Shown: piece after piece, positions 1 through 53,213 of the stretch
Layout of the letters: the number at the start of each line of letters is the position of its first letter
Numbering within the stretch: the first letter of the stretch is position 1
Assembly (NCBI GenBank): GCA_944323995.1
Contig: CALUUN010000009.1
Coordinates: 1 to 53,279 of the forward strand
Direction: 5' to 3'
Source of the DNA: Candidatus Gastranaerophilales bacterium
Lineage (GTDB): Bacteria; Cyanobacteriota; Vampirovibrionia; Gastranaerophilales; Gastranaerophilaceae
Length of the DNA: 53,279 nucleotides
Notes under the pieces: model-generated
Seen by the model: the letters and a program-made list of their open reading frames with translations, nothing else
What the model was told of the DNA's origin: nothing
Databases searched by the model: none
Position numbers and translations under genes: made by a program

Positions 1-518
1 ATCTAAACGTAGCAAGTTTAGGCGGCAGCAACTGTGCAATAGAACTAAGTGACGGAACATGCTTCACAGCACCGTTCATACCAACAGCACATGTTTGGAA
101 TGGTTGTGACACAAACGGAACAACAAGTGACCCTGATGACTTAGCATTTATGAGTAAATATAGCCTTCAATATTGCTTGGCATCAAGCGATGGACCAAAT
201 GACTACTGGGCAGGTGCAGTAAAAGCATGTAAAGATATGGGTTCATCACTACCCAGTCAGGAACAGTTAGACCAACTAGCGAGAGACTTGTACCCGGGCA
301 CAGAAATAACAACAGGAACAAGCAAAGGACAAAGAGCTAACGACCTTGCAGTATCAATGGGCTTTATCTCCTCTCCCGGCAATGCGTTTTGGCTGTGGTC
401 GAGTGAGGAGTACAGCAAGAACGACGCGTACAACCGCTACTTCTTCTCCATGAGCACGTACCGGTCCAGCTACTACCGCTACAGCAGCAACACTCAGGCG
501 GTGTGCTTAGCGGAATAG
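1..518 (+). CDS. Diversified prepilin-like protein, copy 1 (3' part only)
   Basis: The gene enters from the left edge in frame (first full codon at 3) and ends at 518, leaving 171 visible residues. These match the C-terminal half of the complete paralogue at 29672-30739: a SLGGSNCAIELSDGTCFTAP block, then a lectin-like block (DYWAGAVKAC, DMGSSLPS, NDLAVSMGF, WLWSSEEYSK) and the ending QAVCLAE. The layout resembles C-type-lectin/FGE-like ligand domains used as DGR targets. The N-terminal prepilin leader lies outside the window and is inferred from the paralogues. The last 41 codons are GC-rich, and 27 of the 28 codons from 411 to 494 end in G or C, unlike the AT-rich sequence before them. The likely role is a surface or pilus-tip adhesin with a mutable binding face; the ligand is unknown. 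Confidence 0.85.
   Translation, partial: LNVASLGGSNCAIELSDGTCFTAPFIPTAHVWNGCDTNGTTSDPDDLAFMSKYSLQYCLASSDGPNDYWAGAVKACKDMGSSLPSQEQLDQLARDLYPGTEITTGTSKGQRANDLAVSMGFISSPGNAFWLWSSEEYSKNDAYNRYFFSMSTYRSSYYRYSSNTQAVCLAE
396..518 (+). other. DGR-type variable region, copy 1
   Basis: This stretch covers the last 41 codons of the gene, starting at the Trp codon of WSSEE. Compared with 30617-30739 and 51906-52028, variable bases lie at codon positions 1 and 2 of 19 codons between 411 and 494, while third bases stay fixed there. Invariant codons contain few or no mutable adenines, and a constant 24-base end at 495-518 fits an initiation-of-mutagenic-homing site. The 5' edge is uncertain because some differences begin near 375. 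Confidence 0.85.
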
Positions 519-29671: not shown

Positions 29672-30739
29672 ATGAACAAAAAAGCATTTACGTTGGCAGA
29701 GGTGCTGATAACTCTTGCAATTATAGGAATTGTCGCAGCGCTGACTATACCGACATTAATTCAGAATTATCAGGAAAGAGCATGGAACACTGCATCACAG
29801 GTGTTCCAGAGAAAACTCGGTGAAGCATTAAGAGTAATGAATGTTCAAGGAACCTTAGCAGGCTATACAACAACAGAAGCGTTTGTTGATGAATTATCTA
29901 AACATATTAAGATAACAAGAATATGCGATAACGATGATATCACAACATGCTTTTCAGATACCGTAACCTGGGGTGATGAAGAAGTTGACATGTCTAAAGT
30001 TAAAAAAGCTAAAAACTTCGGACAAAACGACTGGGATACAAATACAGTAGCAGTACAATTTGCAAACGGTGTGAACGGTGTAATAGCATACAACCCAAGT
30101 TGTACGCAGAACCAGTTCAGTAATGATGTAATAACAATAGGAGAAACCGGAATAGGTACAAACTGTCTTGCAATATTATATGATGTAGACGGATTTAAGA
30201 ACCCTAATACCAAAGATAAAGATTTAAAGAATCTAAATGTAACAAGTTTAGGGGGCAGCAACTGTGCAATAGAGTTAAGTGACGGAACATGTTTCACCGC
30301 ACCGTTCTATCCAACAGCACATGTATGGAACGGTTGTGATGCAAACGGAACAACAAGTGATCCTGATGACTTAGCATTTATGAGTGAGCACAATATTCAA
30401 TATTGCATGACATCAAGCTATGGAACAAATGATTACTGGGCAGGTGCAGTAAAAGCATGCCATGATATGGGCTCAAGTTTACCGAGTGATACAGAACTGA
30501 TGAAACTTGCAGAAGAGTTATATCAAGACACAAGCAGACCCTTCTCTGGCAATAGAGATAACGACCTTGCAGTATCAATGGGATTCATCACCTCTCCCGG
30601 CTCATCGTTTTGGGTTTGGTCCAGTGAGGAGTACAGCAAGCACTACGCGTACAACCGCTACTTCTACTCCACGAACCCGGGCCAGAGCTACTACCCCCGC
30701 AACCGCAGCATCAGTCAGGCGGTGTGCTTAGCGGAATAG
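29672..30739 (+). CDS. Diversified prepilin-like protein, copy 2 (complete)
   Basis: The 355-residue protein begins MNKKAFTLAEVLITLAII, a class III prepilin leader (Glu at the +5-type position), with a membrane helix to about residue 28. A middle domain (about 35-235) contains Cys pairs. The C-terminal C-type-lectin/FGE-like domain (about 235-355) carries DYWAGAVKAC, DMGSSLPS, NDLAVSMGF and WSSEEYSK. The last 40 residues, from Trp316, form a hypervariable face with a fixed QAVCLAE end. Residues 5-142 are identical to copy 3 despite silent DNA changes. AAGGAG lies 9 nt before the ATG. It is probably a pilus-displayed adhesin under XRE control and retargeted by a DGR; the ligand is unknown. Confidence 0.88.
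   Translation: MNKKAFTLAEVLITLAIIGIVAALTIPTLIQNYQERAWNTASQVFQRKLGEALRVMNVQGTLAGYTTTEAFVDELSKHIKITRICDNDDITTCFSDTVTWGDEEVDMSKVKKAKNFGQNDWDTNTVAVQFANGVNGVIAYNPSCTQNQFSNDVITIGETGIGTNCLAILYDVDGFKNPNTKDKDLKNLNVTSLGGSNCAIELSDGTCFTAPFYPTAHVWNGCDANGTTSDPDDLAFMSEHNIQYCMTSSYGTNDYWAGAVKACHDMGSSLPSDTELMKLAEELYQDTSRPFSGNRDNDLAVSMGFITSPGSSFWVWSSEEYSKHYAYNRYFYSTNPGQSYYPRNRSISQAVCLAE
30617..30739 (+). other. DGR-type variable region, copy 2
   Basis: These are the last 41 codons of the gene. Variable codons fall at 30632-30715 and the constant end at 30716-30739. Substitutions relative to the other two copies are at codon positions 1 and 2 in codons that would be AAC, AAG or AAT in a template. The deduced residues at variable sites are mainly Tyr, Asn, Ser, His, Arg, Pro, Gly, Gln, Thr and Ile. 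Confidence 0.88.
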
Positions 30740-51905: not shown

Positions 51906-52028
51906 CTATTCCGCTAAGCACACTGCCTGAAAGTGGCTGTAGTAGCGGTAGTTGTGGTACCAGTACGTGGTCGTGGAGTAGAAGTGGCGGCCGTACGCGG
52001 CGTACTTGCTGTCCTCCTCACTCGACCA
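51906..52028 (-). other. DGR-type variable region, copy 3
   Basis: These are the last 41 codons on the minus strand, with variable codons at 51930-52013 and the constant end at 51906-51929. Codons differ from copies 1 and 2 almost only at first and second positions. One third-position change is in the constant end (GCG to GCA), possibly drift after the last homing event. Confidence 0.85.
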
Positions 52029-53213
52029 CAGCCATAACGAGTCGCTGGGAGAGGAGATAAATCCCATTGATACTGCAAGGTCATTATCTCTGTTTGCATA
52101 TTCATAGGACGTAGTTGCGCCTGATATTGGTGCGTCATATAATTCGTTTGCTAACGCTGTTAACTGTTCCTGACTCGGTAATGATGATCCCATATCTTTA
52201 CATGTTTTTACTGCACCTGCCCAGTAGTCATTTTTGCCATAGGGTGAATACATGCAATATTGAAGACCATATTTACTCATAAATGCTAAGTCATCAGGAT
52301 CACTTGTTGTTCCGTTTGTGTCACAAGCATTCCAAACATGTGGTGTTGGTATAAAAGGTGCAGTGAAACATGTTCCGTCTGATAGTTCTATTGCACAGTT
52401 GCTGCCCCCTAAACTTGCTACGTTTAGTCCTCTTAAATCTTTTTGCTGGGTATTAGGGTTCTTGAATCCGTCTACGTCATACAGTATTGCAAGACAGGTT
52501 GTGCCTATGCCGGTTTCGCCTACTGTTATTACATCATTGCTGAATTGGTTCTGTCTGCAATCGGGATTGTATGCTATTACACCATTCACTCCGTTTGCAA
52601 ACTGTACTGCTACCGTGTTTGTATCCCAGTCGTTTTGTCCGAAGTTTTTAGCTTTTTTAACTTTAGACATATCAACTTCTTCATCACCCCAGGTTACGGT
52701 ATCAGAAAAGCATGTTGTGATATCATCGTTATCGCATATTCTTGTTATCTTAATATGTTTAGATAATTCATCTACAAATGCTTCTGTTGTTGTATAACCT
52801 GCCAAGGTTCCTTGGACATTCATTACCCTTAATGCTTCACCGAGTTTTCTCTGGAATACTTGTGATGCAGTGTTCCATGCTCTTTCTTGATAATTCTGAA
52901 TTAATGTCGGGATTGTCAGTGCTGCAACAATACCGATTATTGCAAGAGTGATTAATACTTCCGCAAGAGTAAAGGCTGCCTTTTTGCGCTTACTGTCACA
53001 TTTTATCGGTTTTGCGATTGCGACGTCGCTTCGCTCCTCGCAATGACAGGACGTGCTGTCATTACGAGCAGACGCAGTCTGCGTAGTAATCGCATTGTCG
53101 CTGCAATTTACTAATCCCGCAAATGCACTCTGCGCGGTGCTTTTGCTTATCGCTTTACTCCTAAATACCCCGAAACCCGCACGGTGAGAGCTTAAAGAAG
53201 TACCCCCCCCCAT
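51906..53213 (-). CDS. Diversified prepilin-like protein, copy 3 (unusual 5' end)
   Basis: The frame is open from an ATG at 53213 to 51906 (435 codons). Residues matching copy 2 begin only at about residue 79 (KKAAFTLAEVLITLAII), so the prepilin leader sits behind 78 residues of repeat-derived sequence including SCHCEERSDVAIAK. No ATG lies near the usual leader start. From AFTLAEV through VIAYNP (138 residues) it is identical to copy 2; then the lectin-like domain and a variable C-terminus (Trp396 onward) follow. Either the leader is long, an unusual start is used, or the copy is silent. The G9 tract next to the ATG makes phase variation possible. Confidence 0.65.
   Translation of the reverse strand: MGGGTSLSSHRAGFGVFRSKAISKSTAQSAFAGLVNCSDNAITTQTASARNDSTSCHCEERSDVAIAKPIKCDSKRKKAAFTLAEVLITLAIIGIVAALTIPTLIQNYQERAWNTASQVFQRKLGEALRVMNVQGTLAGYTTTEAFVDELSKHIKITRICDNDDITTCFSDTVTWGDEEVDMSKVKKAKNFGQNDWDTNTVAVQFANGVNGVIAYNPDCRQNQFSNDVITVGETGIGTTCLAILYDVDGFKNPNTQQKDLRGLNVASLGGSNCAIELSDGTCFTAPFIPTPHVWNACDTNGTTSDPDDLAFMSKYGLQYCMYSPYGKNDYWAGAVKTCKDMGSSLPSQEQLTALANELYDAPISGATTSYEYANRDNDLAVSMGFISSPSDSLWLWSSEEDSKYAAYGRHFYSTTTYWYHNYRYYSHFQAVCLAE
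53021..53105. repeat. REP-like palindromic repeat in the 5' part of copy 3
   Basis: It contains AATGACAG...CTGTCATT (53042-53063), GCAGAC-GCA-GTCTGC (53068-53082) and CTTCGCTCCTCGCAATGAC. Its reverse complement translates to CHCEERSDVAI, a well-known sign of a repeat read as protein. Related pieces occur at about 586-645 and 51768-51782. Confidence 0.7.

Follow-up and report, generated by a model that had tools for sequence, protein, structure and literature searches.

The window, 53,279 nucleotides long, corresponds to contig C9 in a genome of 1.75 Mb (G000) and carries three copies of one gene family, all of which we assign to the targets of a diversity-generating retroelement (DGR). Copy 1 lies at 3 to 518 on the plus strand, with its 5' part lost at the contig start and 171 codons remaining, and its variable region (VR), the in-frame C-terminal end of the gene, was placed at 384 to 510 by alignment to the template repeat TR1, to which it is homologous and from which it differs by mutated adenines. 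Copy 2 (29672 to 30739, plus strand) encodes 355 amino acids, with a prepilin N-terminus (N_methyl / IV_pilin_GFxxxE) and a C-terminal domain modelled as a C-type lectin fold, shares 71-73% identity with copy 1, and has its VR at 30606 to 30731 on the same strand by TR1 alignment. Copy 3 lies on the minus strand as an open frame of 435 codons (51906 to 53213), where the prepilin motif begins only at about codon 79 and the true start is uncertain, and its VR aligns to TR1 at 51914 to 52039 (minus strand). Shortly downstream of copy 1 the minus strand carries the bacterial class A RNase P RNA (1243-1648; Rfam RF00010, 204 bits) and two adjoining pilin-like genes (1674-2297 and 2308-2976), the first with the N-terminus MKKGFTLSEVM, which by repeats fall outside the DGR family.

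The sequence-only reading had drawn attention to a run of G/C-ending codons at the end of copy 1 and had described it as an inserted, template-derived block at 396 to 518. The count given there was exact: in codons 6-33 of the frame from 396, 27 of 28 codons have G or C as third base, the lone exception being ACT, and A/T-ending codons are indeed common in the upstream part of the gene (GC3 43/126 = 0.34), at which rate a plain binomial gives P = 5e-12 for 27/28. The sliding-window calculation that it had proposed, run in 28-codon windows, gave 7 to 14 G/C-ending codons out of 28 up to about codon 106 of the fragment, followed by a climb to 27/28, and the bias is thus confined to the gene end rather than spread over the whole gene. 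The island is also found in copies 2 and 3, where 38 of the 44 end codons are G/C-ending in comparison to 98/310 and 132/390 upstream, respectively, and it is therefore not peculiar to copy 1.

A search of the genome with window positions 360 to 518 returned about two dozen matching places, one of which (C19:22871-22997) is TR1, located away from the window on contig C19 (G000:C19:22870-22999), about 200 bp upstream of the reverse transcriptase gene RT1 and flanked by this DGR-type reverse transcriptase and an Avd gene. The sequence of TR1 (...AAGAACAACGCGTACAACCGCAACTTCAACTCCACGAACACGAACCGGAACAACAACAACCGCAACAACAGCAACAAT...) is that of a classic A-rich template repeat, with 14 AAC and only 1 AAT among its asparagine codons. 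In comparison to TR1, over 122 aligned bases, copy 1 is changed at 14/42 adenines and at 1/80 other bases, and 41/42 codon third bases are equal. The homology covers window positions 384 to 510 and contains a near-invariant 3' block, CAGGCGGTGTGCTTAG, immediately past the end of which the two diverge, the divergence following directly after GTGTGCTTAG. The block at 396 to 518 was thus drawn too short at its 5' end and its last positions (511-518, CGGAATAG) are not template-derived; the template origin holds, and the insertion is better replaced by overwriting of the stretch in place. Of the two outcomes that the sequence-only reading had named as refuting it, a bias running through the entire gene and a genome lacking a template, neither was obtained.

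DGR-type reverse transcriptases are marked by [IVL]GNxxSQ in place of the QGxxxSP motif of RVT_1 proteins, along with YxDD. Both reverse transcriptases of the genome (RT1, and RT2 of a second cassette described below) scored over the cut-off for PF00078, and the motifs LPIGNLTSQ and YVDDF were read in them, which places both in the DGR type as judged from their sequences. Both Avd proteins scored over the cut-off for PF22296 (bAvd), while their best NCBIfam match, NF033474 (E=1e-19 for the Avd on the TR1 side), reached 70.8 and 49.3 bits, below the 80-bit cut-off. The frames of both RTs and both Avds are open, and the nearest named relatives of the RT are from Candidatus Gastranaerophilales assemblies, which makes the host most likely a member of this order. 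An Rfam search of the TR region matched no family.

To include copies on the minus strand and copies with codon insertions or deletions, VRs were collected by gapped alignment on both strands. The results showed 22 VRs for TR1, spread over at least 10 contigs, with changes at 404/918 adenine sites in comparison to 103/1757 non-adenine sites (odds ratio 12.6, p=3e-122). The second DGR (L029, G000:C8:53500-58771) has its own Avd and its own template, TR2, placed beyond Avd2, with the RT on the other strand, and has 10 VRs in other dispersed prepilin-like genes, with changes at 169/360 adenine and 27/920 non-adenine sites (odds ratio 29). Under the rule of PMC8144416 that at least 75% of mismatches lie at a template A, 18/22 TR1 VRs and 9/10 TR2 VRs pass (27/32), copy 1 having 14 of its 15 mismatches at A. 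The 32 VRs are a minimum, since four contigs, namely C9 (at window position 1), C16, C17, and C19, end inside family members and the copy number is thus underestimated. At the AAC sites, the TR1 VRs carry Tyr in 25%, Asn in 15%, Ser in 13%, and Gly in 10% of cases, the TR2 VRs carry Tyr in 23% and Gly in 22%, and no stop codon occurs in 381 codons. When the reverse transcriptase of Bordetella phage BPP-1 was studied in E. coli, the main products at AAC were Tyr, Ser, and Asp with Tyr favoured, and AAC and AAT had unlike error profiles even though the same amino acids can be reached from both (PMC12875486). Non-A changes are few in most VRs and absent (0/79) from the cassette-linked copy, but some VRs carry 5 to 18 of them (at most 18/80), and VRs with many such changes may have slipped out of template control and no longer be served.

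Several individual copies deviate from the common form. A premature TAG within the VR of L004 (C11:8249) stems from a non-A change. L005 (C3:79063) has lost its central region, with 145 amino acids left, and has a fresh VR (20/42 A and 1/80 non-A sites changed), and this seemingly broken gene may still undergo rewriting. In L025 (C1:149081), L145 (C5:66880), and L146 (C6:83829), a lectin/VR-like domain lies mid-protein in a different pilin-like protein and the VRs are decayed (18/80 non-A changes in L025), which suggests transplantation of the domain away from template control.

We compared the third-base composition of the gene ends over the whole target family, which has about 50 members in the genome. 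The mean GC3 of the last 44 codons was 0.83 in the 31 genes with TR1- or TR2-type ends, in comparison to 0.32 (range 0.18-0.59) at the gene end of 18 full-length paralogs with ends of neither type (p=7e-9). Among the TR1 VRs, GC3 declines with rising non-A divergence (rho -0.79). The mean pairwise identity of 21 TR1 targets was 0.91 at non-A sites and 0.47 at A sites of the VR, while for the same 21 targets it was 0.67 in the 120 nt preceding the VR and 0.78 over the upstream gene, which is the pattern predicted by repeated overwriting from one template. The bias thus belongs to the template and not to the protein region.

In a survey of 25 DGRs, namely those of TR1 and TR2 and 23 others whose TR-VR pairs were detected de novo at RT loci of several phyla (L048-L080), AAC accounted for 0.75 of the AAY codons in the TRs and for 0.41 in the RT genes beside them (Wilcoxon p=2e-6), and GC3 was 0.77 and 0.46, respectively. 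The preference of TRs for AAC over AAT holds in low-GC hosts too. The preference for C over T is a general property of TRs, in agreement with the published AAC-specific errors of the reverse transcriptase (PMC12875486), and the island is accordingly a general consequence of TR design that is clearest in AT-rich hosts.

The sequence-only reading had also remarked that the 3' flank of copy 1 differs from those of copies 2 and 3, and had taken this to mean that the block retained its ending as its surroundings changed. The difference is real, as a downstream hairpin common to copies 2 and 3 and several other copies is absent from copy 1. However, the downstream flank of copy 1 (AACAGTTGTTGTCAAGACGCA...) recurs in near-identical form after four other family members (L012, L015, L018, and L019), and copy 1 is thus better read as belonging to a different duplication lineage. 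Such flank types, common to groups of copies, indicate that whole-gene duplication, along several lineages, spread the family. A search for 3' stem-loops downstream of the VRs found hairpins whose position is not conserved across copies (mean z -1.25), with no common structure, which counts against the DGR reading given below. The target frames of L006, L007, L084, L085, and L089 extend upstream into apparent translated dispersed repeats (CHCEERSDVAI..., NPLPLGEGGTQCRVR...), and the same repeat-like leader precedes L147, a non-target pilin; these dispersed repeats may have aided the spread of the genes.

With regard to the encoded proteins, the N-terminus of copy 2 is that of a prepilin, matching PF07963 with 26.8 bits (cut-off 21.2) and TIGR02532 with 25.9 bits (cut-off 16.3). 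A structural model of its C-terminal 161 residues, built from a 14-sequence alignment, had a pLDDT of 83.8 and a pTM of 0.81; a model of full-length copy 2 from six sequences was set aside (mean pLDDT 44). The fold matches for this model in the PDB (VIA-align) were the C-terminal domain of Bd2740 (Z 12.1) and Legionella Lcl (Z 10.4), followed by intimin and the mannose-receptor CRD with Z near 9.5-9.9, and the VR is carried at the C-terminal end of this domain, predicted to have a C-type lectin fold. A Pfam profile search of protein P0002 matched no lectin-fold family. The targets are prepilin-like proteins by sequence, with a predicted lectin-fold end. The genome encodes a prepilin peptidase and several secretion/pilus ATPases; from the N-terminal motif only, we infer a placement in the pilus or at the surface. 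Most likely, these proteins would form a varied set of binding proteins at the cell surface or the pilus tip. No relatives of the targets were found in the viral contigs searched.

Taken together, we consider it very likely that window positions 384 to 510 are the VR of a DGR target gene, overwritten from TR1, and that this one template serves about 22 genes. By extension from the BPP-1 DGR, reverse transcription of TR1 RNA would introduce errors at adenines, and the resulting cDNA would then take the place of the matching target-gene end, with the 3' block CAGGCGGTGTGCTTAG as the probable anchor. As the mutable codons of TR1 are nearly all AAC, positions 1 and 2 would change while the third C would be copied unchanged; with the third base kept as C at each overwrite, the C-ending codons of TR1 would be re-imposed on an AT-rich gene, giving rise to the island. 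One TR1 would in this way serve about 22 scattered genes and TR2 a further 10, and the effect would be to randomise the lectin-fold C-terminal face of the prepilin-like products. Retrohoming may be active at present.

The family was clearly spread by whole-gene duplication, flanks included, and one may ask whether duplication together with recombination among paralogs, acting independently of a reverse transcriptase, could have spread a GC-rich cassette whose residues were then altered by diversifying selection. Such a process has no reason to change only the A of one remote sequence, as seen in copy 1 (14/42 in comparison to 1/80) and over the 22 copies (odds ratio 12.6), nor to freeze third bases while first and second bases vary, nor to leave 67% identity in the 120 nt before the VR and 91% at its non-A sites, and we regard it as very improbable. 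Even less credence is due to a horizontally acquired GC-rich segment or to codon usage selected locally for the protein region. The GC3 jump that would invite such an explanation, from 0.34 to about 0.95, is genuine, but the 18 untemplated full-length paralogs (mean GC3 0.32) show that the domain has no need of the bias, and the source sequence lies within the same genome.

Template-directed overwriting could also belong to the past, the cassette and targets having been active formerly and being inactive now. Non-A changes have accumulated in several VRs (up to 18/80), and the RT has been lost patchily in relatives while the target paralogs persist, both of which fit a relic. We nevertheless hold a relic to be unlikely, since the two RT and two Avd frames are all open and most VRs show few non-A changes, with 0/79 in the cassette-linked copy and 1/80 in the window copy.

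Similar arrangements were found in related genomes. Independently, genome G047, which belongs to a different genus within the family, has a single TR with 23 VRs, with changes at 441/965 A and 66/1884 non-A sites, and 19 of these VRs pass the 75% rule; another genome, G003, has 8 VRs. In three further loci of relatives (L050, L054, and L055), the DGR targets likewise combine a prepilin part with a lectin part; the target precedes Avd, and the TR lies beyond Avd. No TR was found beside the RTs of G006 and G014. Within the genus, RTs of the TR1/TR2-cassette kind are patchy, and the target paralog family is present in 7/7 relatives examined.

We tentatively propose, as a possibility that we hold close to evenly balanced, that this lineage of gut bacteria uses DGRs as genome-wide repertoire generators, in which one template rewrites at least 20 dispersed prepilin-lectin genes in trans, drifted copies become fixed and slowly lose their C-ending signature, duplication adds copies, and the approximately 18 untemplated paralogs are retired, selected variants. 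The retirement of these paralogs is a hypothesis, and their ends could instead stem from a template since lost. If a single TR keeps over 20 unlinked genes in line with it, DGR action in trans would not count as an oddity and would instead be a means of operating a multigene repertoire. The system would then resemble antigen-variation families, with the difference that its variation is random and newly made; the third-base composition of each copy, together with its non-A divergence, would provide a clock for the time since its last overwrite; and the way in which distant targets are retained or dropped would become testable from sequence alone.

The mechanism itself is known, and what is unusual here is the scale, with 22 (plus 10) dispersed VRs lying far above the usual number. 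In the papers compared, the highest figures are 7-8 targets per TR (PMC10743442 cites up to eight) and 15 per genome, and any priority of the present scale holds with respect to these papers. Among the papers searched, none linked DGRs to Gastranaerophilales, prepilins, or type IV pilins, and for Vampirovibrionia, Melainabacteria, and Vampirovibrio the top 12 of 77 matches included none with the DGR term. The 91 TR-VR pairs of Pseudomonas costantinii (PMC6642488) were considered as a precedent and rejected, since that paper itself notes few A-to-N changes and describes a single giant adhesin gene with 21 merged VRs. The predicted fold of the variable domain is like that of the C-terminal domains of Legionella pneumophila Lcl and Bdellovibrio Bd2740 (PDB 8q4e, 8oks), but at 12-15% identity the resemblance extends to the fold only and is no indication of a common function. 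The DGR of the Bordetella phage BPP-1, the prototype reconstituted in E. coli (PMC12875486), likewise has an RT, an Avd, an A-rich TR of mostly AAC codons, adenine-specific VR changes, a conserved 3' anchor (a probable one here), and a C-type-lectin target (by prediction here). It differs in having a single tail-tip target beside the cassette, in comparison to the scattered cellular prepilin-like targets found here, 22 of them on one TR, and in requiring a stem-loop immediately downstream of the VR, to which no match was found here. The Treponema denticola DGR (PMC4891356) likewise uses one TR and RT to serve distant surface-protein paralogs that end in a lectin fold, but its targets number no more than seven, of which some carry lipoprotein signals, in comparison to 22 (plus 10) with prepilin N-termini in the present genome. 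Thiohalocapsa PB-PSB1 (PMC10907252) likewise has several DGRs per genome and remote targets that are likely served in trans, with 15 targets of defence-sensor architectures spread over nine loci, whereas here 32 prepilin-like targets are served by two loci.
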